Origin: Streptomyces sp. DG1A-41
GTDB taxonomy: Bacteria > Actinomycetota > Actinomycetes > Streptomycetales > Streptomycetaceae
DNA: 64,000 bases
Assembly: GCF_037055355.1 (NCBI RefSeq)
Contig: NZ_CP146350.1
Span: forward strand, 2,317,001 to 2,381,000
Direction: 5' to 3'
Under the pieces are notes generated by a model, which saw only the letters and a list, made by a program, of their open reading frames with translations, made no database searches and was not told the origin of the DNA. Below, piece by piece: positions 43,772-53,479 of the stretch. Made by a program: the position numbers and the translations under genes. The number at the start of each line of letters is the position of its first letter. The stretch's first letter is position 1.

Positions 43772-44554
43772 GTGCCCAGAACCTCGCCCCTCGACGGTGT
43801 CCGCTTCGCCTTCGGCACCCTCACGGTGTTCCCGGTCCGGGTGACCCGGTGGGACCGGGAGGCCGCGCGCGGCGGCATGCTGTGCGCTCCGCTGGCCGGG
43901 CTCGCGGTCGGTGCCGCTGCCGCCGCCGTCGGGCTGGCGCTGCTGTTCCTGGGGGCGGGCGGACTGCTCGCCGCCGTGGCCACCGTCGCGGTCCCCGCCG
44001 TCCTGACCCGGGGGCTGCACCTGGACGGGCTCGCGGACACCGCCGACGGGCTGGGCAGCGGGAAGCCCGCCGAGGACGCCCTGCGGATCATGAAGCAGTC
44101 GGACATCGGGCCCTTCGGGGTCATCACCCTCGTCCTCGCCCTGCTCACGCAGGTCGCCGCACTCGCCCAGGCCTACGACGTGTCTTGGGCCCGGGGCGCG
44201 TGCGCCGCCGTCGTCTCCGCGACGGCCGCCCGGCTGGCCCTGACGCTCGCGGCCCGGGCCGGGGTGCCGGCGGCGCGGCCGGAGGGACTGGGGGCGGCGG
44301 TCGCGGGTGTGGTGCCGATCCGTGGGGCGCTGCTCGCCGGTGTCGCCGTCACGGGCGTGGCGGCAGCGGGCGCCACCTTCCTCGGGCCGTACGACGTCGC
44401 CCGTACCGTGCTCGCGCTCCTGCTCTCCCTGGCCGCCGCCGAAGCGCTCCTGCGCCACTGCACGCGGCGCTTCGGCGGGATCACCGGGGACGTGTTCGGC
44501 GGCCTGGCGGAGACGACGGCGACGACGGCACTGGTCGTCCTGTCACTGGGCTGA
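43772..44554 (+). CDS. cobS: Adenosylcobinamide-GDP ribazoletransferase (cobalamin synthase)
   Basis: A 260-residue integral membrane enzyme that joins adenosylcobinamide-GDP and alpha-ribazole in the final nucleotide-loop step. Signature HLDGLADTADGLG with conserved Asp residues (about 88-100), KQSDIGPFGV, and FGGITGDVFGG near the C-terminus. GTG start 43772. It completes the cobU-cobT-cobS set of this window, although the three genes are separated by unrelated ones. Its downstream neighbour is a broken RDD gene. Confidence 0.95.
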   Translation: MPRTSPLDGVRFAFGTLTVFPVRVTRWDREAARGGMLCAPLAGLAVGAAAAAVGLALLFLGAGGLLAAVATVAVPAVLTRGLHLDGLADTADGLGSGKPAEDALRIMKQSDIGPFGVITLVLALLTQVAALAQAYDVSWARGACAAVVSATAARLALTLAARAGVPAARPEGLGAAVAGVVPIRGALLAGVAVTGVAAAGATFLGPYDVARTVLALLLSLAAAEALLRHCTRRFGGITGDVFGGLAETTATTALVVLSLG

Positions 44555-44632: not shown

Positions 44633-45011
44633 ATGTTCACGCCGAAGCTGCGCCGTGCCGTGGCCTGGTCCGTCGACTTCGTGGCTGTGTCTGGCCCTGG
44701 CCGGGCGGACGGCCGGCCAGGGCCTGGTCGGGCTGCAGGTCACGCCGCGGCTGCCGCGCCGGGCGGCGCTGCCAGCCGCCGTGACCACCGCGGACGTCGC
44801 CGTGTACGCGGTGGCCTGTGTGCTGCTGGTCGAGGGTCGAATCGTGCTGTCGGTGCTGGTGTGGGCGATCGCGGTGGCGCTGATCCTGCTGAACGCGCTG
44901 CCCGTCCTCTCCCCCGGCCGCCGGTCCCTCGCCGACCGGGTGGCGGGCACGGAGGTCACCGGGATCGGGCTCAGCACGCCTGTCGCCACGCCCCTAGTTC
45001 GTACTTCTTGA
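44633..45011 (+). pseudogene. RDD-family membrane protein remnant
   Basis: The beginning MFTPKLRRAVAWSVDFVA (frame of ATG 44633) is the first RDD helix start. After 44684 the homologous sequence continues in another frame with LALAGRTAGQGLVGLQV and ends with RRSLADRVAGTEV. The rest of TM1, the loop and the start of TM2 (tens of residues) are missing, and the frame changes. This is an internal deletion with frameshift, so a true remnant. Its end overlaps the GH114 gene convergently by 41 bp. It lies at the border of the exopolysaccharide-like operon. Confidence 0.7.
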
Positions 45012-45747
45012 GCAGTGAACTCAAGCGCAGGCGGCGGGACTCGGCGCAGAAGCGGCCGGTGGGCACCTCGTACTCGACGTGGAAGACGGCCTTGCCCGCC
45101 TCGACGAACGGCTTCAGCGCACCGCACTCGTCGTACTGGGCGCACTGTTCGTTGACCGCGAAGTCGAAGTCCCCGACCAGCTCCGGGATCTGGTCCAGGT
45201 CGTTCTTCAGGCCGACGGCCAGGCCCCGGTCGTGGGCCAGGCGGGCGATGAGGCGGTTGTAGCGGAGCTGGTCGGCGGCGGCCAGCGGGAAGCCCGTGTC
45301 GTTGCGGTAGCCGTCCATGTTGTCGGGCTCCACCGCGTCGAAGCCCTTGTCGCGGCACATGTCCATGCGGGCCGCCATGAGCGGCTCCAGGACGTCGGTG
45401 CGGCGGATGTCGAGCCAGCGTTCGCCCTCCCAGCCGTTGCCGCGGCCGAGGACCGACGCCGGGAACTTCTTGGCGTCCGGCCGGAACTCCTCCCAGGCTC
45501 CCGTGGACAGATAGCAGATGACCTTGCGGCCCTCGCGGTGCAGCCGGGCGACGGTGGCCTCGGAGTGGTCGAAGCCGTCGATGTCGTAGACGGGCACGTC
45601 GACGGAGGTGTCCAGACGCCCGCTGAGCTGCCACTGCCAGGCCGTGCCGGGGCGGGGCTGCCAGCGGGGGCCGGGCTTGTCGTCGGGGTCCTGGGTGCAG
45701 CCCGCGAGCAGCAGGACGAGCAGGGCGGCGAGCAGGGGGCGTCTCAC
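44971..45747 (-). CDS. GH114 endo-alpha-1,4-polygalactosaminidase lipoprotein
   Basis: A 258-residue surface lipoprotein (lipobox LLLAGC, residues about 12-17). The GH114 TIM-barrel starts at WQWQLSG and carries DVPVYDIDGFD, ICYLSTGAWEEFRPD and the catalytic-region motif GFDAVEPDNMDGY. Characterised relatives are Aspergillus Ega3 and the hydrolase domain of Pseudomonas PelA, which cut alpha-1,4-linked galactosamine polymers. GTG 45747 overlaps the upstream spherulin-4 stop (GTGA). It is the last gene of the five-gene operon and probably trims the polymer or releases it from the cell. Confidence 0.9.
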   Translation of the reverse strand: MRRPLLAALLVLLLAGCTQDPDDKPGPRWQPRPGTAWQWQLSGRLDTSVDVPVYDIDGFDHSEATVARLHREGRKVICYLSTGAWEEFRPDAKKFPASVLGRGNGWEGERWLDIRRTDVLEPLMAARMDMCRDKGFDAVEPDNMDGYRNDTGFPLAAADQLRYNRLIARLAHDRGLAVGLKNDLDQIPELVGDFDFAVNEQCAQYDECGALKPFVEAGKAVFHVEYEVPTGRFCAESRRLRLSSLLKKYELGAWRQAC

Positions 45748-46403
45748 CGGGCGTTCTCCGGGTTGTGCAAGGTGTACGGCAGTGTGCCCCAAGGATGATC
45801 TCCGGTTCCGGGCACCGCGCAGTGCACCGCCGCGCCCCGCTCCCGCGCCAGGCCCTCCGGGTCGGCGCCGGGCGGCACGTCGTACACCAGGTGGCACAAC
45901 CGCACCCCGCCGTCGCCGGGCCAGGGCTGGGGCGGCAGGGCGCGGTAGGACGCCCAGGTCCCCTCGAAGGTGACGAGGACGTCGGCGATGCGGGCGTAGC
46001 AGGGGTGCGGTGCCGTGCCGTGGTTGAGGACGAGGGTGCCGCAGCCGACGCCCCAGGCGGCCACCGCCAGCCTCTGGTAGTGCTCGAACTGTTCGGGCCC
46101 GGAGGGGACCTGGTCGAGGAAGGCGCCGTCGGTGCCGTACCAGTCGCGGTGCCGGGTGAGGTCGCGGACGACGTCGGTGGCGGCGCGGCGGCCGTAGTCG
46201 CTGTCGGCGTACCCCAGCACCCGGACGCCCGCCCCCCTGAGCCGTTCGGCGACCTCGGCGAACGCCTCGTCGGGGCGGTCGCCGGGGCCGCTGGCCGGGT
46301 TGAGGACGACGCCGTAGAGGCGTGGCGCGGCCGCCACGATCGCGTCCCATTCGGCGGGGCGGGCGGACGGGTGCTCGTAGTAGGGGACCAGGAGAGTGCT
46401 CAT
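45744..46403 (-). CDS. Spherulin-4 family (GH135-like) protein
   Basis: A 219-residue TIM-barrel of the spherulation-specific family 4, whose characterised member Aspergillus Sph3 (GH135) cuts N-acetylgalactosamine-containing galactosaminogalactan. LLVPYYEHPS opens the barrel, VVLNPASGPG and VLGYADSDYG follow, and the acidic active-site strand reads GAFLDQVPS, with FEG later. The usual Asp-Glu pair is here Asp-Gln, so activity may differ. No signal peptide is visible, which is odd for a polymer hydrolase. It is translationally coupled on both sides (ATGA, GTGA). Confidence 0.85.
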   Translation of the reverse strand: MSTLLVPYYEHPSARPAEWDAIVAAAPRLYGVVLNPASGPGDRPDEAFAEVAERLRGAGVRVLGYADSDYGRRAATDVVRDLTRHRDWYGTDGAFLDQVPSGPEQFEHYQRLAVAAWGVGCGTLVLNHGTAPHPCYARIADVLVTFEGTWASYRALPPQPWPGDGGVRLCHLVYDVPPGADPEGLARERGAAVHCAVPGTGDHPWGTLPYTLHNPENAR

Positions 46404-47914
46404 CGGTGGGCGGTTGCCCTCCCGAGCAGCACGCACACCAGGACGGCCTGGACGACGGCCGCCGCGCCGTACACGATCAGGCCCGCCGTGTGCGGGTCGC
46501 CGGTGCGGGTGGCGAGGAGCAGGGTCTGGGCGAGGGCCGCGGCGCAGCACACCACCGTCGCGCCGGTCACCGCGCCGAACGACTGGAGCAGCAGGCCCGT
46601 CCACAGGACCACGCCCAGCAGGAGCAGCCCGGCCAGCCGGACGCCGCCCGGGACCGGGGAGTGCGGCCACAGGAGGGAGGCGGCGAGGCTCAGCGCGAGC
46701 AGGGCGGCGAGATAGGCGGCCAGGCACTGGACGACCGTCAGGGCCGTGGTGCACCAGAAGTCCCGGGCGGTGCCGCTGGAACGCAGTCCGGCGAGGCTGT
46801 CGCTGCGGAAGCGGTACAGCAGCCACTCGGCGGGGCCCATGCTGAGGGTGAGCGCCACGGCGGCGGGCGCGGCGACCGCGCTGTGGTCCTCGCCGGCGAG
46901 GACGTCGCCGAGTGCCGCGTACAGCACGAGGACGCCGGTGCCGAGCCCGAACAGGGCGTACGGCAGGGAGCCCGTGAGCCGGGGTCCGGCGGGGCGCCGG
47001 TGTGCGGGGGTGGTGCCGAACCCGCCGAAGGGCAGCAGGGCGACGAGGCCGGCGGTCCAGCCGCCCTCGCCCGGTTCCTTGAGGGCGGGTGCCACTTCGC
47101 GGACGGCGAGGGCCGCGACCGCCGCCAGGGAACCCAGCAGCAGGACCAGGCTCGCGGCCTCGGGCAGCGGGTCGACCAGGGACAGGACCGCGCCCATCGC
47201 CATAGGTGCGAGCGCGGCCAGCAGGAACCGCTCCCGGCCCATCACCAGCAGGACGGTCGCCGCCGCCAGATAGCAGGACTGCCCGGCGGCGAAGGCCACC
47301 ACGGCCGGGGCGGCGCCGCCCGCGGACGCCAGGGCGACCAGCGAGCCGAGCAGCGCGCCGACCGGGGCGCCGAGCAGCAGGGCACGCCGGGCGGCCATCC
47401 GGTCGCCCAGCCCCAGCCAGGCGTACGCCCGGTGGGCGAGGCCCTGGTTCCACGTCCAGCCGCACAGGGCGCCGGCCAGGAGCGGGACCGTGCCCGCGGG
47501 GAGGCCGAAGTCGTCGGGGCCCGTGAACAGGGGTGCGCCGAGGACGTAGGCGAGGCCGGGCAGGGCGAAGACGACGCCGCGCAGCAGGCAGCCGAGCAGG
47601 CCGATCCGCCACGGGTCGTGGACCGGGCCGTCGGGCTCGGGGTAGTGGCGCTCGACGCGTTCGTAGAGGGTCTCGGCGAGCGCGAAGGAGTTCTTCAAGC
47701 CGTAGCGTTCGCGTATCTGGTCGTCGGAGAGGCCGTCGGACTCCAGGAGGGCGGCTATCTCGTCCGGGTGGACGGCCGCTGCTATGAAGTCCTCCAGGCG
47801 GGCGGCGAGTTCGTCGACCGGGTCGGGCTGGGCCCAGCTGGGGGTGCGCTGCCGGGGGATGCCGGGCAGGGTGTCCGGGCGGGAGCCCGGGGGCAGCCAG
47901 ACGCTTCCGCTCAC
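46400..47914 (-). CDS. Polytopic membrane protein of the polysaccharide operon (PelG-like position)
   Basis: A 504-residue protein. A cytoplasmic helical N-terminus (1-110, with DEIAALLESDGLSDDQIRERYG) is followed by 11-12 transmembrane helices. I cannot assign a named family with certainty. Its place directly after PelF and the helix number are those of PelG, the polymer exporter that works with PelF, so export or lipid-carrier translocation of the polysaccharide is the likely role. GTG 47914 overlaps the pelF stop, and its own stop overlaps the spherulin-4 start. Confidence 0.75.
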   Translation of the reverse strand: MSGSVWLPPGSRPDTLPGIPRQRTPSWAQPDPVDELAARLEDFIAAAVHPDEIAALLESDGLSDDQIRERYGLKNSFALAETLYERVERHYPEPDGPVHDPWRIGLLGCLLRGVVFALPGLAYVLGAPLFTGPDDFGLPAGTVPLLAGALCGWTWNQGLAHRAYAWLGLGDRMAARRALLLGAPVGALLGSLVALASAGGAAPAVVAFAAGQSCYLAAATVLLVMGRERFLLAALAPMAMGAVLSLVDPLPEAASLVLLLGSLAAVAALAVREVAPALKEPGEGGWTAGLVALLPFGGFGTTPAHRRPAGPRLTGSLPYALFGLGTGVLVLYAALGDVLAGEDHSAVAAPAAVALTLSMGPAEWLLYRFRSDSLAGLRSSGTARDFWCTTALTVVQCLAAYLAALLALSLAASLLWPHSPVPGGVRLAGLLLLGVVLWTGLLLQSFGAVTGATVVCCAAALAQTLLLATRTGDPHTAGLIVYGAAAVVQAVLVCVLLGRATAHR

Positions 47915-49434
47915 CAGCCGGCTCCGTCCGTCGCCACGGCCGCGTACCAGGGGTCGCGCAGTTCCAGGGTCCAGTCGGCGACGGTCTCCAGCGTCGGCTC
48001 GTACACCTCGTCCTCGCCCGCGAGTTCCTTGTAGATGGTGCGGAAGGCGTCCACCGAGCGGCGCAGCGTGAACCGGTCGATGACGCGCTGCCGCGACAAC
48101 TGCCCGAGTTCGAGACGCCGTTCGTCGTCCTTGAGCAGGGTCAGCGCGGCGGCGGCCATCTTCTCCGGCTCGCGCGGGGGCACGACCAGGCCCGTGTCGC
48201 CGACGGCCTCGCGCACTCCCCCGACGTCCGTCGACACCGTCGTACGGCCGCACGACATGGCCTCGATGATGGAGAACGGGAAGCCCTCGGAGATCGACGA
48301 CAGCATGACCAGGTGCCCGGCCGCGTAGGCCCTCCAGACCTCGCTGATGCGGCCCTCGAAGGTCAGGCCGTCGGTGACGCCCAGTTCGGCGGCGAGCTTC
48401 TCCAGCCGGGTGCGGTAGGCCTCGCCGCCGGGCGGGACCGGGCCGAAGAGCCTCAGCCGGGTCGCCGGTATCTCGGCGCGCACCATCGCGTAGGCGCGGA
48501 TCAGGGTCTCCAGGTCCTTGATGGGGTCGATCCGGCCGCACCAGGAGAGGGTGGGGACCTCGGGCTCGGGGCCGGCGTGCGGGAAGGCGGCCGGGTCGAC
48601 GCCGTTGTAGACCGTGCGGATCTTGCCGGAGTCGGCGCCGCCGCGCTCCTCCCAGCGGCGGTTGTACTGGTTGCACGGCGTGATCAGGTCGGCGGCCCGG
48701 TAGCCGTAGGAGTTCAGCTCCCGGTAGAAGCCCAGCATGAACGCCTTCACGGGCCAGCGCTGGGCGTCGCGGCGGTGGCCGAGGTAGCGCTCGCGCAGGT
48801 AGATGCCGTGCTCGGTGAGCAGGAACGGCACGCCGTCCAGGTGGCGGGCGGCGAGCGCGGGCAGGGTCGCGAGGCCGCTGCTGACGGCGTGCGCGACGGA
48901 CTCCTCGGGGATACGGACGCCGAGCGGGCGCAGGGCGTGTTCCAGCAGGTCGGTCGCGGTCAGCGCATCGTGCACGGTGGGCCGGGCGGCGGCCGTCGGC
49001 AGATGCGGCATCGTCCAGATCCACATCAGCGACCGCAGCGCCGACTCCGTGCGCAGGGCCGCCGACAGGCGGCCGTCCCGGGCGAGTTCGGCCAGCTCGT
49101 TCAGGGACTCGCCGAAGTCGGCGTGCGAGCCGGGGTCGAGGAAGGAGAGCAGGAAACGCTCGTAGGTCTCGGTGAAGCGGCGGCGGGCCCTGCCGTACGG
49201 CGGCCTCGCGCGCCCGGGGCGCGGGCCCCAGGTGGGCACGGAGGTGTGCCGGTAGACGTTGGGCGGCAGCTCCCAGGTGACGGGTTCGCGGCCGCTGCCG
49301 GTGAGCGCGACTATGTGGAAGTCGACCTCGGGCATGCCCTTGACGAGCTGGTCGCACCAGGTGCTGACGCCGCCGTGGACGTGCGGGTAGGTGCCTTCGG
49401 TGAGCATGGTGACATGACGGCCTGTTCGCCTCAT
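47911..49434 (-). CDS. pelF: PelF-like GT4 glycosyltransferase
   Basis: A 507-residue cytoplasmic retaining glycosyltransferase. The PelF-type N-terminus MLTEGTYPHVHGGVSTWCDQ is distinctive. Nucleotide-sugar binding follows in YNGVDPAAFP and WCGRIDPIKDLETLIRA, and the GT4 acceptor motif SEGFPFSIIEAMSCG holds the E-x7-E pair. PelF in Pseudomonas polymerises GalNAc from UDP-GalNAc; Gtb3 in the Aspergillus galactosaminogalactan cluster is a GT4 relative. ATG start; 138 bp, including a repeat, separate it from the deacetylase gene upstream. No PelD-type c-di-GMP receptor is encoded here. Confidence 0.9.
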   Translation of the reverse strand: MRRTGRHVTMLTEGTYPHVHGGVSTWCDQLVKGMPEVDFHIVALTGSGREPVTWELPPNVYRHTSVPTWGPRPGRARPPYGRARRRFTETYERFLLSFLDPGSHADFGESLNELAELARDGRLSAALRTESALRSLMWIWTMPHLPTAAARPTVHDALTATDLLEHALRPLGVRIPEESVAHAVSSGLATLPALAARHLDGVPFLLTEHGIYLRERYLGHRRDAQRWPVKAFMLGFYRELNSYGYRAADLITPCNQYNRRWEERGGADSGKIRTVYNGVDPAAFPHAGPEPEVPTLSWCGRIDPIKDLETLIRAYAMVRAEIPATRLRLFGPVPPGGEAYRTRLEKLAAELGVTDGLTFEGRISEVWRAYAAGHLVMLSSISEGFPFSIIEAMSCGRTTVSTDVGGVREAVGDTGLVVPPREPEKMAAAALTLLKDDERRLELGQLSRQRVIDRFTLRRSVDAFRTIYKELAGEDEVYEPTLETVADWTLELRDPWYAAVATDGAGW

Positions 49435-49489
49435 GCGTGGTTTTCCCCCTGTGATGCGGATTGTGTGGCGGGGATGCCGAGTGCGGGCA

Positions 49490-49567
49490 CCGTGTGGCTG
49501 GTCGCGCCCCCGCGGCGGAGCCGTATGTCGAATACGGCCCCTGTCGAATACGGCCCCGCGCCCCTGA
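49490..49567 (+). repeat. Interspersed GC-rich repeat, family A copy 5, with 16-bp tandem duplication
   Basis: The usual core GTCGCGCCCCCGCGGCGGAG leads into TGTCGAATACGGCCCC at 49526-49541, which is repeated exactly at 49542-49557. It lies inside the operon between the deacetylase and pelF genes. The duplication is a recent slippage or unequal-exchange event. Confidence 0.7.
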
Positions 49568-49572
49568 AGGCT

Positions 49573-51606
49573 CTAGGGCAACTTCAGAGTCAGAGCCGAC
49601 TGGAGTGCTGCCGGGGTCGTCCAGTCCGAGCGGGCTCCCGCGTACGGGGTGCCGAAGGCGGTCGTGCCCAGCAGGAGTTCCTTCTTCGTGCCCTCCGGCG
49701 CGGTCACTGGGATCTGCGTTCCGGACGGGGCGGTGACCGTGACCGTGTCACCGACGCGGTACGCGGTCACGCGGCCGTTGGCCAGGGCCGTCTGCCAGGC
49801 GGCGCGGCGCTGTACCTCGGTGCCGATGGCGCTGTGCCGGGGGTTCTCCAGCGGAGTGTTGTCGGCGAACAGCGCCCGGTAGTCGTCCAGCACCTTCTCC
49901 ATGACCGGGTAGAGCAGCCGCTCCTCCGCCAGGTTGGACTGGTGCGCGTAGTGCGGCCGGGGGTCGCCGGCGAGGGCGTGGCCGAGGGCGGTGCGCGCCT
50001 CCTGCGGGACGATGTGCTCGGCGTAGCCGGTGGTGGGGTCGAGCGGCTCGTCGAGGCAGGTCGAGGTGGGGTTGTCCTCGCAGACGCCGCTGCCGCCGTC
50101 GGTTCGCGAGGTGTAGACCCAGTTGTACTCGTCGGCCATCTCGGCCGCCGTGCCCACGTTGTAGTACACGTTCATCGGGTGGCGCGGCACGGTCAGGGCG
50201 TTGCCGATCGCGCGCTGGTCGGGCTCGCGGGAGTTGTCCGAGGCGATCCACTTGACGCCGGTGTCGGCGAGGGCGCCGGCCAGGTCGGGGTTGTCGTCGG
50301 GCTGCTGGGGCAGCGTCCTGAGGCCCGAGTGCTCACCGGTGACCAGCTCGGCACGGTCGACGGTCAGGCCCTTGTTCACGGCCCAGTCGTGGTTGTCGCG
50401 GATCTGCGCGGCGATCTCGGCGCGGCTCATGTACTGGGTGGAGCCGTCGGCGTTCTTCGCGCAGCTCCACGGCACGGTGGAGGTGTCCTGGACGCAGCCC
50501 AGGAAGGGGTGCGTGTAGGTGTGGTTGACCCAGCGGTACTGCGCCTTGTCGGCGAGCAGCCGGTCGGTGAGCGCGTCGGTGCCGCCGTGCTGGGCCTTCC
50601 ACTCCTCGCCGGAGCCGGCGTTGTAGACCATGTCCATCGTGAAGCCGTGCTCGCGCTGCCACTGGGCGGCGTAGGCGGCGTCGTCCGCGGTCATGCGGAT
50701 CGGCGTGGTGCCCTCGCCGTCGCCGCCCGCGCAGTCGAAGTCGCCCGGGGTGCAGTCGCGCTCGGTGTCCCAGCGGCTGTCCGGGGCGAACACGTCGTCG
50801 ATGTGCACGGCGAAGGAATGGCGGGTCCGGCCGAGGTGCACGCCCTGGGTGAGCCACTCGACGATGCCGCGGGCCAGCAGCCGGAACTGCTGCTGGTTGC
50901 TGTTGTAGGCGAAGGTCACCACGAGTTCGCGGCGGCCGTCGTGGGAGTACTCGCCGACGAGGCTGCCGCGGCCGGTGCCACCGGGCACGGGGATGTCGAC
51001 GTAGCTGGTGAAGCCGGTGCGGGGCCGGGCGACATAGCCGTAACTCTCCTGTACGGCCGGGGCGTTGTCCTCGAACCGGAACGCGCCGTCGAGGTAGCCG
51101 AACCAGCCGGCCTTCCCGGCCGCGGTGACGGATGCCTCGCGCCCGTCGAGAGTGCCCGCCCAGCCACCCTCGCTGGTGTAGTCGAGGCCGACCCCCGGGT
51201 GCGCCCAGGTGTAGGCGTCGACCTGCGGGATGCCGTACGTCCGCTCGTAGGTCTCCAGCGCGGTCTGCTCGGCGGAGCCCGCGCCGAACGGGGACTCGTT
51301 CGGCAGGACGACGCCCTGGTACCTGGCGCGGGGGCTGCCGTTCACCGTGTCACTCAGGAACGACTCGGTGATCTTCGGGCGGCCGGCGTTGTTCAGGTCG
51401 ATGGTCGTGTACGGGACACCCGTGCTCCTCAGCTGGGCGGTGACGGCCCGGACCGGGCTGTCGCCGTTGTCCACCACCAGCACCTTCAGATCGATGCGCG
51501 GTTCCTCCGCGGCCGCCGCCCCGGGCGCCACCGCCCCGGCCGTGATCATGCCCGCCGCCGTCACCGCGGCGGCCGTGCCTCTCCATCCGCGCGCACGCTG
51601 CGCCAT
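49573..51606 (-). CDS. Secreted Agd3/CE18-like polysaccharide deacetylase
   Basis: A 677-residue secreted enzyme. Signal peptide 1-33. Residues about 40-250 form the carbohydrate-binding/flavodoxin-like N-terminal region (KVLVVDNGDSPV...). The deacetylase region has HIDDVFAPD (Asp270/Asp271) and the metal pair in NHTYTH (His362, His366), then VTGEHSGLRT and PRHPMNVYYN. A beta-rich C-terminus (about 600-677) follows. The closest described enzyme is Agd3 of Aspergillus, which deacetylates galactosaminogalactan; PelA has an analogous activity. GGGAGGAACC before the ATG. First gene of the operon, facing pepA across a 346-bp divergent region. Confidence 0.88.
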   Translation of the reverse strand: MAQRARGWRGTAAAVTAAGMITAGAVAPGAAAAEEPRIDLKVLVVDNGDSPVRAVTAQLRSTGVPYTTIDLNNAGRPKITESFLSDTVNGSPRARYQGVVLPNESPFGAGSAEQTALETYERTYGIPQVDAYTWAHPGVGLDYTSEGGWAGTLDGREASVTAAGKAGWFGYLDGAFRFEDNAPAVQESYGYVARPRTGFTSYVDIPVPGGTGRGSLVGEYSHDGRRELVVTFAYNSNQQQFRLLARGIVEWLTQGVHLGRTRHSFAVHIDDVFAPDSRWDTERDCTPGDFDCAGGDGEGTTPIRMTADDAAYAAQWQREHGFTMDMVYNAGSGEEWKAQHGGTDALTDRLLADKAQYRWVNHTYTHPFLGCVQDTSTVPWSCAKNADGSTQYMSRAEIAAQIRDNHDWAVNKGLTVDRAELVTGEHSGLRTLPQQPDDNPDLAGALADTGVKWIASDNSREPDQRAIGNALTVPRHPMNVYYNVGTAAEMADEYNWVYTSRTDGGSGVCEDNPTSTCLDEPLDPTTGYAEHIVPQEARTALGHALAGDPRPHYAHQSNLAEERLLYPVMEKVLDDYRALFADNTPLENPRHSAIGTEVQRRAAWQTALANGRVTAYRVGDTVTVTAPSGTQIPVTAPEGTKKELLLGTTAFGTPYAGARSDWTTPAALQSALTLKLP

Positions 51607-51952
51607 GGTTCCTCCCCCAGAAGATCCCCGAGATCCCCTTGCGGTCGAACAAAGGAGGATCCGTGGAAATCATGCAAAGCGGCGAGCAGGTCGCTCACCG
51701 GATCTCGATGAGTGTGACTCAGTTCACCGACATAGAGGATCAAGAAATGGCCACTACGCCACCGACAGGTGAACGCCCGCAGGAATGAGCGAACACGACC
51801 ACACGCGTAGTCTCGTCGTCGAGTGTTCGCCGCACCGGGGAAGGCCCCGTGACATCCGAACCCTGAGGTCGCCATAGGGTCGGCTGTCGGGCCCGGTCGA
51901 CCCACACCGTTCGACCACAGCAACTTCACATCGGAAGCGAGATTTCACCACC
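51607..51952. other. Divergent intergenic region between the deacetylase operon and pepA
   Basis: 346 bp without a gene. On the plus strand a TAGGGT box (51875-51880) lies 72 bp before pepA, with GTGACA 20 bp upstream, a poor spacing. A small hairpin CGGGG-AAGG-CCCCG is at 51836-51849. On the minus strand no standard promoter is convincing. The region is AT-richer than its surroundings between 51640 and 51760, which may mark the operon's regulatory DNA. Confidence 0.5.
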
Positions 51953-53479
51953 GTGACTGCTCTCACTCTCAGCACCGCCGCGGCGCCCGGTCTGCGGGCC
52001 GACGCCATCGTGATCGGTGTCGCCAAGGGTGCCAAGGGGCCGGTCGTCGCACCGGGCGCCGAGGCCGTGGACAAGGCGTACGACGGCAGGCTCGCCGGCG
52101 TTCTGGAGACTCTCGGCGCCTCCGGTGCCGAGGGCGAGGTGACGAAGCTGCCGGCACCGTCCGGCTTCAAGGCGCCGCTCGTGCTGGCGGTGGGCCTGGG
52201 CGCGGTGCCCGAGAAGGACGCCGACTACGGCACCGAGGCCCTGCGCAAGGCCGCCGGCGTCGCCGCCCGCTCCCTGGCCGGGTCCAAGAAGGCCGCCTTC
52301 GCCCTGCCCCTGACGGACGCCGTCGACGCCGGCGCGATCGGGGAGGGCGCGCTGCTCGGCGCCTACTCCTTCAACGCCTACAAGGACAACGGCAAGGACC
52401 CCAAGGCGAAGAACGCCAAGGCCCCGCTCGCCGAGGTCGCCCTGCTCGGCGGCAAGCCCCGCGACAAGGCGCACAAGGCCGCCGTCGAGCGTGCCGTCGC
52501 CGTGTCCGAGGAGCTCAACCGCGCCCGCGACCTGGTCAACACCCCGCCGAACGACCTGAACCCCGAGTCGTTCGCCGCGATCGCCCAGGCCGCGGCCAAG
52601 GAGCACGGCATCAAGGTGCAGGTGCTCGACGTGAAGGCCCTGGAGAAGGGCGGCTACGGCGGCATCCTCGGCGTCGGGGCCGGCTCGGTGGCGGGACCGC
52701 GCCTGGTGAAGCTGTCGTACACCTCCTCCAAGGCGAAGAAGCACCTCGCCTTCGTCGGCAAGGGCATCACGTACGACTCGGGCGGCATCTCGCTGAAGCC
52801 GGCCGGTCACAACGAGACGATGAAGTGCGACATGAGCGGCGCGGCCGCCGTGTTCGCCGCGGTCGTCGCCGCCGCACGCCTCGGTCTGGAGGTCAACGTC
52901 ACCGGCTGGCTGGCCCTGGCCGAGAACATGCCCTCCGGCTCCGCGACCCGTCCGGGTGACGTGCTGCGGATGTACAGCGGCAAGACCGTGGAGGTGCTCA
53001 ACACGGACGCGGAGGGCCGGCTGGTGCTGGCCGACGCGCTGTGGGCGGCGTCGCAGGAGAAGCCGGACGCGATCGTGGACGTCGCGACGCTGACCGGGGC
53101 GATGGTGCTGGCGCTGGGGAACCGGACGTTCGGGATCATGGGCAACGACGACTCCTTCCGTACGGCGCTGTTCGAGGCCGCGGGGGAGGTCGGGGAGCCG
53201 GCGTGGCCGATGCCGCTGCCGGAGCACCTGCGCAAGGGGATGGACTCGCCGACGGCCGACATCGCGAACATGGGCGAGCGGATGGGCGGCGGTCTGGTCG
53301 CCGGTCTGTTCCTGCGCGAGTTCGTGGGCGAGGGCATCACCTGGGCACACCTCGACATCGCCGGGCCGGCCTTCAATGAGGGCGGTCCGTTCGGGTACAC
53401 GCCGAAGGGCGGGACCGGCAGTGGTGTGCGGACGCTGGTTCGGCTCGCCGAGCTGACGGCTGCGGGTGATCTGGGCTGA
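51953..53479 (+). CDS. pepA: Leucyl aminopeptidase (M17)
   Basis: A 508-residue cytosolic aminopeptidase with two metal ions that removes N-terminal Leu and other residues. The N-terminal domain (1-180) is followed by the catalytic domain with VGKGITYDSGGISLKP, MKCDMSGAAAV and the M17 signature NTDAEGRLVLADAL. The GTG has GGAAGCGAG upstream. It is followed by lpdA-sucB, as in other actinobacteria, where pepA/pepB sits near the lipoyl enzymes. In this window it marks where conserved gene order resumes after the exopolysaccharide-like operon. Confidence 0.96.
   Translation: MTALTLSTAAAPGLRADAIVIGVAKGAKGPVVAPGAEAVDKAYDGRLAGVLETLGASGAEGEVTKLPAPSGFKAPLVLAVGLGAVPEKDADYGTEALRKAAGVAARSLAGSKKAAFALPLTDAVDAGAIGEGALLGAYSFNAYKDNGKDPKAKNAKAPLAEVALLGGKPRDKAHKAAVERAVAVSEELNRARDLVNTPPNDLNPESFAAIAQAAAKEHGIKVQVLDVKALEKGGYGGILGVGAGSVAGPRLVKLSYTSSKAKKHLAFVGKGITYDSGGISLKPAGHNETMKCDMSGAAAVFAAVVAAARLGLEVNVTGWLALAENMPSGSATRPGDVLRMYSGKTVEVLNTDAEGRLVLADALWAASQEKPDAIVDVATLTGAMVLALGNRTFGIMGNDDSFRTALFEAAGEVGEPAWPMPLPEHLRKGMDSPTADIANMGERMGGGLVAGLFLREFVGEGITWAHLDIAGPAFNEGGPFGYTPKGGTGSGVRTLVRLAELTAAGDLG

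Follow-up and report, generated by a model that had tools for sequence, protein, structure and literature searches.

A chromosomal operon of Streptomyces sp. DG1A-41 predicted to make a Pel/galactosaminogalactan-type exopolysaccharide

Introduction

The window analysed here, a stretch of 64,000 nucleotides of Streptomyces sp. DG1A-41 (contig NZ_CP146350.1, forward-strand positions 2,317,001 to 2,381,000), carries five co-directional genes, which encode a CE18-type deacetylase, a PelF-type glycosyltransferase, a polytopic membrane protein and hydrolase-family proteins of GH135 and GH114. The question raised by this locus is whether it makes and processes a cationic galactosamine polymer, as proposed in an earlier note made from the sequence alone, makes a glycan of some other amino sugar, or attacks polymers made by other organisms. 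The first answer is favoured here, with a probability of roughly 0.75: the locus would be a chromosomal operon (the genome is a single 8.99 Mb contig) for a cationic exopolysaccharide of the Pel/galactosaminogalactan type, with product, substrate and biological role all predicted from the analyses described below.

The operon and the proposed pathway

All five open reading frames of the earlier note were recovered on the minus strand, and the coordinates and start codons place 4-nt overlaps (GTGA, ATGA and GTGA) between consecutive genes from the second to the fifth, while a gap of 138 nt separates the CE18 gene from the PelF-type gene. The features are as follows.

51606-49573, minus strand: CE18 (Agd3-type) polysaccharide deacetylase, 677 amino acids, presumed secreted
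49434-47911, minus strand: PelF-type GT4 glycosyltransferase, 507 amino acids, signal peptide not apparent
47914-46400, minus strand: MOP-fold polytopic membrane protein, 504 amino acids, GTG start, presumed polymer exporter in the position of PelG
46403-45744, minus strand: GH135/Spherulin-4 protein, 219 amino acids, signal peptide not apparent
45747-44971, minus strand: GH114 endo-alpha-1,4-galactosaminidase-type lipoprotein, 258 amino acids, GTG start, lipobox LAGC
51607..51952, no strand: intergenic region between the operon and a divergent aminopeptidase gene, presumed from the reading-frame layout to hold the promoter

In the proposed pathway, the PelF-type GT4 enzyme would polymerise UDP-N-acetylgalactosamine (UDP-GalNAc) in the cytosol, for which the four galE-type epimerases scoring over the cut-off in this genome are possible sources of the precursor. 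The chain would then cross the membrane through the protein with the modelled MOP fold, as predicted for PelG. Outside the cell, the CE18 protein, assigned by family and conserved residues, would strip acetyl groups to give a cationic, adhesive polymer, as Agd3 does in Aspergillus, and the GH114 lipoprotein at the cell surface would cleave deacetylated stretches, as Ega3 does in the same fungus. The GH135 protein may act inside, cutting still-acetylated chain for length control or for the clearing of stalled chains. The polymer itself may serve in adhesion, hyphal aggregation or matrix formation; the comparable Aspergillus polymer is employed by the mould in its biofilms.

Assignment of the encoded proteins

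The 507-aa glycosyltransferase scores 166.4 bits against the PelF equivalog model NF038011 of NCBIfam (cut-off 100), contains DUF3492 (6.4e-58) together with GT4 domains in Pfam, and carries an EX7E motif at residues 383-391. The 258-aa protein matches the GH114 family (PF03537, 3.6e-88) and Ega3 (6oj1, 8e-61), and falls just under the cut-off of the lipoprotein model PF08139. Its D142 and E200, the only Asp/Glu pair with the right spacing, align with D189 and E247 of Ega3, given as the catalytic residues in the available text of PMC12054363. The 219-aa protein matches the Spherulin4 family (PF12138, 5.7e-29) and, over residues 2-186, Sph3 (5c5g, 2.5e-11). The PelF-like, GH135-like and GH114 identities put forward in the earlier note are thus borne out by the NF038011, PF12138 and PF03537 matches.

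The 677-aa deacetylase required a broader comparison. Neither as a single sequence nor as a narrow Streptomyces profile did it match an entry of the PDB, and its relation to Agd3 was detected because divergent relatives were added: a profile built from 18 diverse sequences matched Agd3 (6nwz) at 2.8e-17, which upholds the CE18 assignment of the earlier note. When parts of this profile were compared alone, the N-terminal stretch gave 3e-12 and the C-terminal stretch 0.053. The structure model shows the three-domain architecture of Agd3 (N-terminal CBM87-type domain, CE barrel and C-terminal beta domain). In the profile alignment, D270 and D271 correspond to motif CM1 (D377 and D378 of Agd3) and H555 to CM4 (H668), and H362 and H366 are assigned to CM2 (HxxxH) by pattern and order. 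These five catalytic and metal-motif residues are invariant in 103 sequences. So are the arginines R460, R465 and R475, none of which could be mapped onto R613 of CM3 in Agd3. The profile match, the fold modelled over the full length and the invariant motifs make the protein a member of CE18, and deacetylase activity is predicted from this membership. A natural protein that joins a CE18 deacetylase and a GH114 hydrolase in a single chain was also observed (P0315, 972 aa).

No family was assigned to the 504-aa membrane protein in a Pfam scan. The structure model gives it a MATE/Wzx/MurJ-type fold of the MOP superfamily, preceded by about 100 additional N-terminal residues with a small helical domain, and on this model the protein is of MOP fold, from which transport and its outward direction are predicted. 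PelG is itself described as a 12-helix bundle of the MOP exporter superfamily (PMC13254593, available text). Membership of PelG by sequence was considered and rejected, with an hhalign probability under 1% against three actinobacterial PelG proteins. Nor does the PelG family PF16933 appear, at E 10, among the Pfam matches of this protein and its 57 aligned relatives. In the phylum sample PelG itself is rare (3/296 genomes at 1e-20), and the structural matches listed for the membrane protein include no PelG structure, of which the library may hold none. Thus, of the earlier proposal that a membrane protein occupies the PelG position, the superfamily fold survives on the model, and detectable PelG homology does not.

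Location of the GH135 protein

In the alignment with Sph3, D97 and E147 of the GH135 protein fall on an Asp and a Glu 56 residues apart, D166 and E222. The catalytic Asp is printed as Asp196 in the available text of PMC12054363, and D166A is the inactive variant in that of PMC8546845. Among 62 aligned rows (the window protein and 61 Streptomyces loci), the Glu at the E147 position is kept in all 62, and an Asp followed by Gln is found in 61, the remaining row (L045) being a gap that stems from a badly chosen start. The position after the catalytic Asp is therefore Gln in the operon proteins and Glu in Sph3. This residue, Glu167 of Sph3, is important for activity.

An N-terminal export signal or membrane anchor was sought in the GH135 protein and none is apparent, and no hydrophobic stretch precedes it in frame. 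A hydropathy measure did not separate it from the N-terminus of the presumed-secreted CE18 protein (1.54 vs 1.65). The argument therefore rests on the start of the homology to the Sph3 barrel, which is reached already at residue 2. Because no signal peptide or anchor is apparent, the protein is probably cytosolic, unlike Sph3 as described in Aspergillus; the earlier note's Sph3-type counterpart thus holds for the GH135 family and fails for Sph3-like export.

Aspergillus Sph3 is reported to be specific for acetylated polymer and Ega3 for deacetylated polymer, both being membrane-bound (PMC12054363, available text). The bacterial layout suggests a corresponding split between compartments, in which the acetylated chain would be trimmed inside and the deacetylated chain outside. 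A wider proposal is made tentatively, and is judged somewhat less probable than its negation: a cytosolic GH135 protein would trim the acetylated nascent chain next to the PelF-type enzyme, which is likewise cytosolic, and surface GH114 the chain left by CE18, so that the acetylation state would report the side of the membrane, and the GH135 relative of a sister locus (type III, below) would serve as a sensor or as an altered enzyme acting on some undescribed glycan.

Distribution and linkage

The genus sample comprised 61 genomes including that of the window, with counts tallied by hand from tables and the best candidates scored per genome (up to 25 for the membrane and PelF-type proteins, up to 19 for CE18 and up to 4 in the class-wide CE18 scan). 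CE18 is present in 33 of the 61 genomes. With an identity of at least 60%, a PelF-type protein accompanies it in 32 of these 33 and occurs in none of the 28 CE18-negative genomes. For the membrane protein the count is 31 of the 33, the exceptions being G047 and G028, where it is cut by a contig end; in 3 of the 28 it gives only a short N-terminal match. G047, the sole CE18-positive genome without such a PelF-type protein, holds an orphan CE18 gene (L015) whose product has lost the metal ligands aligned with D271, H362 and H366, as expected if an orphan CE18 is useless without the operon.

Gene order was examined around the best 80 of 222 CE18 relatives in named genomes (79 titled Streptomyces, one "Actinobacteria bacterium OK074"), with genes matched by tblastn at 1e-8. 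In 64 of these loci at least 6500 bases follow CE18, and 42 of the 64 carry the complete set, in order and on a single strand, in keeping with the co-occurrence anticipated in the earlier note; PelF-type and membrane-protein matches stand alongside CE18 in 61. Five of the 16 shorter loci nonetheless carry all five genes. Class-wide, 19 of 296 genomes (7 of 114 genera) match, 13 of them from the same genus, and three of the other six matches are weak (3e-14 to 6e-4). A locus from a different actinobacterial family (L035) also has a five-gene set of this order, with a CE18 identity of 45% and, in the membrane position, a protein with 9 predicted helices, no phmmer match and 24% identity on alignment. 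The five-gene arrangement is beyond chance, because it recurs in many species and in this second family. Neighbourhood genes were called with a home-made caller based on codon GC bias, which misses genes and performs poorly on L037; genes that it missed (for example GH114 in L024; membrane protein and GH135 in L019 and L025) were placed by sequence searches.

The operon is flanked by the divergent gene for an M17 aminopeptidase (51953-53479), called pepA here, and by cobS (43772-44554). A scan for sigma-70-like promoters in the intergenic region 51607..51952 gave no match and a terminator scan one, neither exceeding the result for shuffled sequences. Among the matches listed, both the membrane protein and the CE18 protein have their closest relatives in Streptomyces, at 95% identity. 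Just past the end of the GH114 gene, and convergent with it, lies the coding sequence of an RDD-like membrane protein (44633-45011, plus strand; likeness judged by eye), seemingly split over two reading frames, neither of which alone is a Pfam match.

Locus types and operon decay

Three locus types are distinguishable, the window's operon being type I. Type II loci (L017, L018, L019 and L025) encode CE18 proteins 56-61% identical to that of the window, with extra genes between those for the membrane protein and GH135, namely for a LegB-like dehydratase, a nucleotidyltransferase and a second short-chain dehydrogenase/reductase (SDR). Family scans covered the dehydratase, of the NAD-dependent 4,6-dehydratase kind, in L017, L018 and L019 (445, 454 and 459 bits, under the cut-off of 475), and the nucleotidyltransferase and second SDR in L017. 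These longer operons hint at a second type of amino-sugar polymer. L040 and L041 resemble them, and the nucleotidyltransferase is of the sugar-1-phosphate type.

Type III loci combine a PelF-type GT4 enzyme at 41-50% identity with a membrane protein, a GH135 relative and an SDR, the last identified from its N-terminus; neither CE18 nor GH114 gave a match in the six stretches that were inspected (L008, L010-L013, L021). The N-terminal domain of the window's membrane protein also occurs beside the type III GT4 gene, in 7 genomes by match and, for the copy in the window's own genome, by eye only. The GH135 relative is present at 1e-60 in 55 of 61 genomes, including the window's own. In the best-scoring 30 of these 55 loci, which were fetched, the N-terminal motif of a neighbour that we take to be moeZ lies within the 1.5-kb flanks in every case. 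Of the 30 relatives, 28 keep the catalytic Asp and none keeps the Glu, whose place is taken by Ser in 22, Ala in 3, Thr in 2, and Gln, Cys and Arg in 1 each. The moeZ-side locus is near-universal in Streptomyces (L008, L010-L013, L122-L151; L021, 6055000-6074000, in the window's own genome), with genes for an alpha/beta hydrolase, a DUF3152 protein, a PelF-type GT4 enzyme, a membrane protein, an SDR and the GH135 relative; the SDR gene of the own-genome copy (L021:10337-11297) is seemingly spread across two reading frames.

At the pepA-cobS address of other genomes, parts of the operon occur alone: GH114 in L164, L166, L169 and, by search coordinates, L165; CE18 in L076 and L097; CE18 with GH114 in L091; and GH135 with GH114 and a membrane-gene fragment in L009. 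These remnants suggest piecemeal loss of the operon at this one address, often with exported enzymes as the part that remains.

Alternative explanations

Several observations weigh against a galactosaminogalactan-type product. The CE18 protein by itself falls under the Pfam Agd3_CE cut-off (14.5 vs 27.6 bits, E 0.017). The operon contains no sugar-nucleotide gene, and sequence cannot reveal substrate specificity. At E 1e-3 neither GH135 nor GH114 is confined to the operon (59/61 and 55/61 genomes), and GH114 of at least 60% identity occurs in 24 of the 33 CE18-positive and also in 6 of the 28 CE18-negative genomes. A match to one or more of the five genes is missing from 22 of the 64 loci (GH114 from 12, GH135 from 5, both from 2, while 2 have CE18 only and 1 CE18 with GH114). 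No PelG family member scores over the cut-off in the genome, and neither does PelD_GGDEF (best 13.3 vs 27 bits), a search whose sensitivity is unproven as 14 control genomes were also blank. The lack of PelB, PelC, PelD and PelE claimed in the earlier note thus stands for PelD and also for PelE, which is not in the operon; with neither PelD, the cyclic di-GMP switch, nor a PelG family member over the cut-off, control must differ from that of Pel.

The polymer could instead be a different amino-sugar glycan, for instance one linked to the wall or one built with a hexosamine in modified or deoxy form, to which the specificities of CE18, GH135 and GH114 have shifted. The LegB-like dehydratase, nucleotidyltransferase and second SDR of the type II sister operons could point to such a different amino sugar, as could the Gln of the operon GH135 proteins where Sph3 has Glu, but the window's operon lacks the type II genes. 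Its GH114 protein also closely resembles Ega3 with both catalytic residues kept, and the described members of the three enzyme families act on alpha-1,4-GalNAc/GalN (galactosamine) polymers (PMC7229062 and the available text of PMC12054363), which makes a different glycan unlikely. It is still less probable, to a degree that we consider remote, that the secreted enzymes are directed at galactosamine polymers made by fungi or other bacteria, to attack or exploit them. The solitary GH114 and CE18 genes at the pepA-cobS address, and a Streptomyces griseus endogalactosaminidase cited in PMC7229062 and in the available text of PMC12054363, would fit such a use. However, the deacetylase is encoded together with the PelF-type and membrane-protein genes in 61 of 64 loci, and the orphan CE18 of G047 has lost its metal-ligand residues. 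Synthesis and processing of a self-made galactosaminogalactan-type polymer is therefore preferred.

Relation to known systems

Genes resembling agd3 were reported in 45 bacterial species by Bamford et al. 2020 (PMC7229062), where every bacterial operon identified also has genes for a glycosyltransferase of the cytoplasm and for a multispanning membrane protein, GH114 consistently co-occurs, and spherulin-4 genes are present in some actinobacterial operons. The window's operon shares these components and is a further member of this published kind; because such operons were already reported there, it is not a new kind. The operon section of that paper, in its available text, gives no membrane-protein fold, location of the spherulin-4 protein or locus types. 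As far as the available open-licence literature goes, the MOP fold, the GH135 protein without export signal, the three locus types and the loss of the Glu in type III are seemingly unpublished. In the same literature, no experimental study of the locus in Streptomyces and no paper pairing DUF3492 with Streptomyces was found.

Should the proposed function hold, roughly half of the Streptomyces genomes in the sample (the 33 of 61 with CE18) could make a mould-type cationic galactosamine polymer. Galactosaminogalactan could then be studied in a tractable bacterial model, and Streptomyces would have a candidate for a second adhesin beside the MatAB poly-N-acetylglucosamine (PMC5972031, available text). 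The loci are further examples for the relationship between the fungal gene set and bacterial operons that has been suggested in print, and the idea of a cytosolic GH135 protein allows a direct test of why, puzzlingly, a hydrolase is needed while the polymer is being made.

Like the galactosaminogalactan cluster of Aspergillus (Agd3, Ega3, Sph3, Gtb3 and Uge3), the window's operon encodes CE18, GH114 and GH135 as separate proteins. By contrast, the fungal cluster is described as using an integral membrane glycosyltransferase for its synthase, alongside a dedicated epimerase, and Sph3 as membrane-bound and acting outside (PMC12054363, available text), whereas the operon has a soluble PelF-type GT4 enzyme, a MOP-fold protein, no epimerase and a GH135 protein in which no export signal is seen. 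The Bacillus cereus pel operon (pelDEADAFG) similarly encodes a PelF-family GT4 enzyme, a MOP-superfamily membrane protein downstream of it and an extracellular three-domain deacetylase (PMC7112168 and PMC13254593, available text). Compared with this operon as described there, the window's operon lacks PelD and PelE, its membrane protein is not homologous to PelG by profile, its deacetylase belongs to CE18 and not to CE26, and GH135 and GH114 are separate proteins. The earlier view that the operon resembles the fungal set more closely than pel thus applies to the hydrolases and the deacetylase, whereas the synthesis and export pair, a soluble GT4 enzyme with a MOP-fold protein, is Pel-like.

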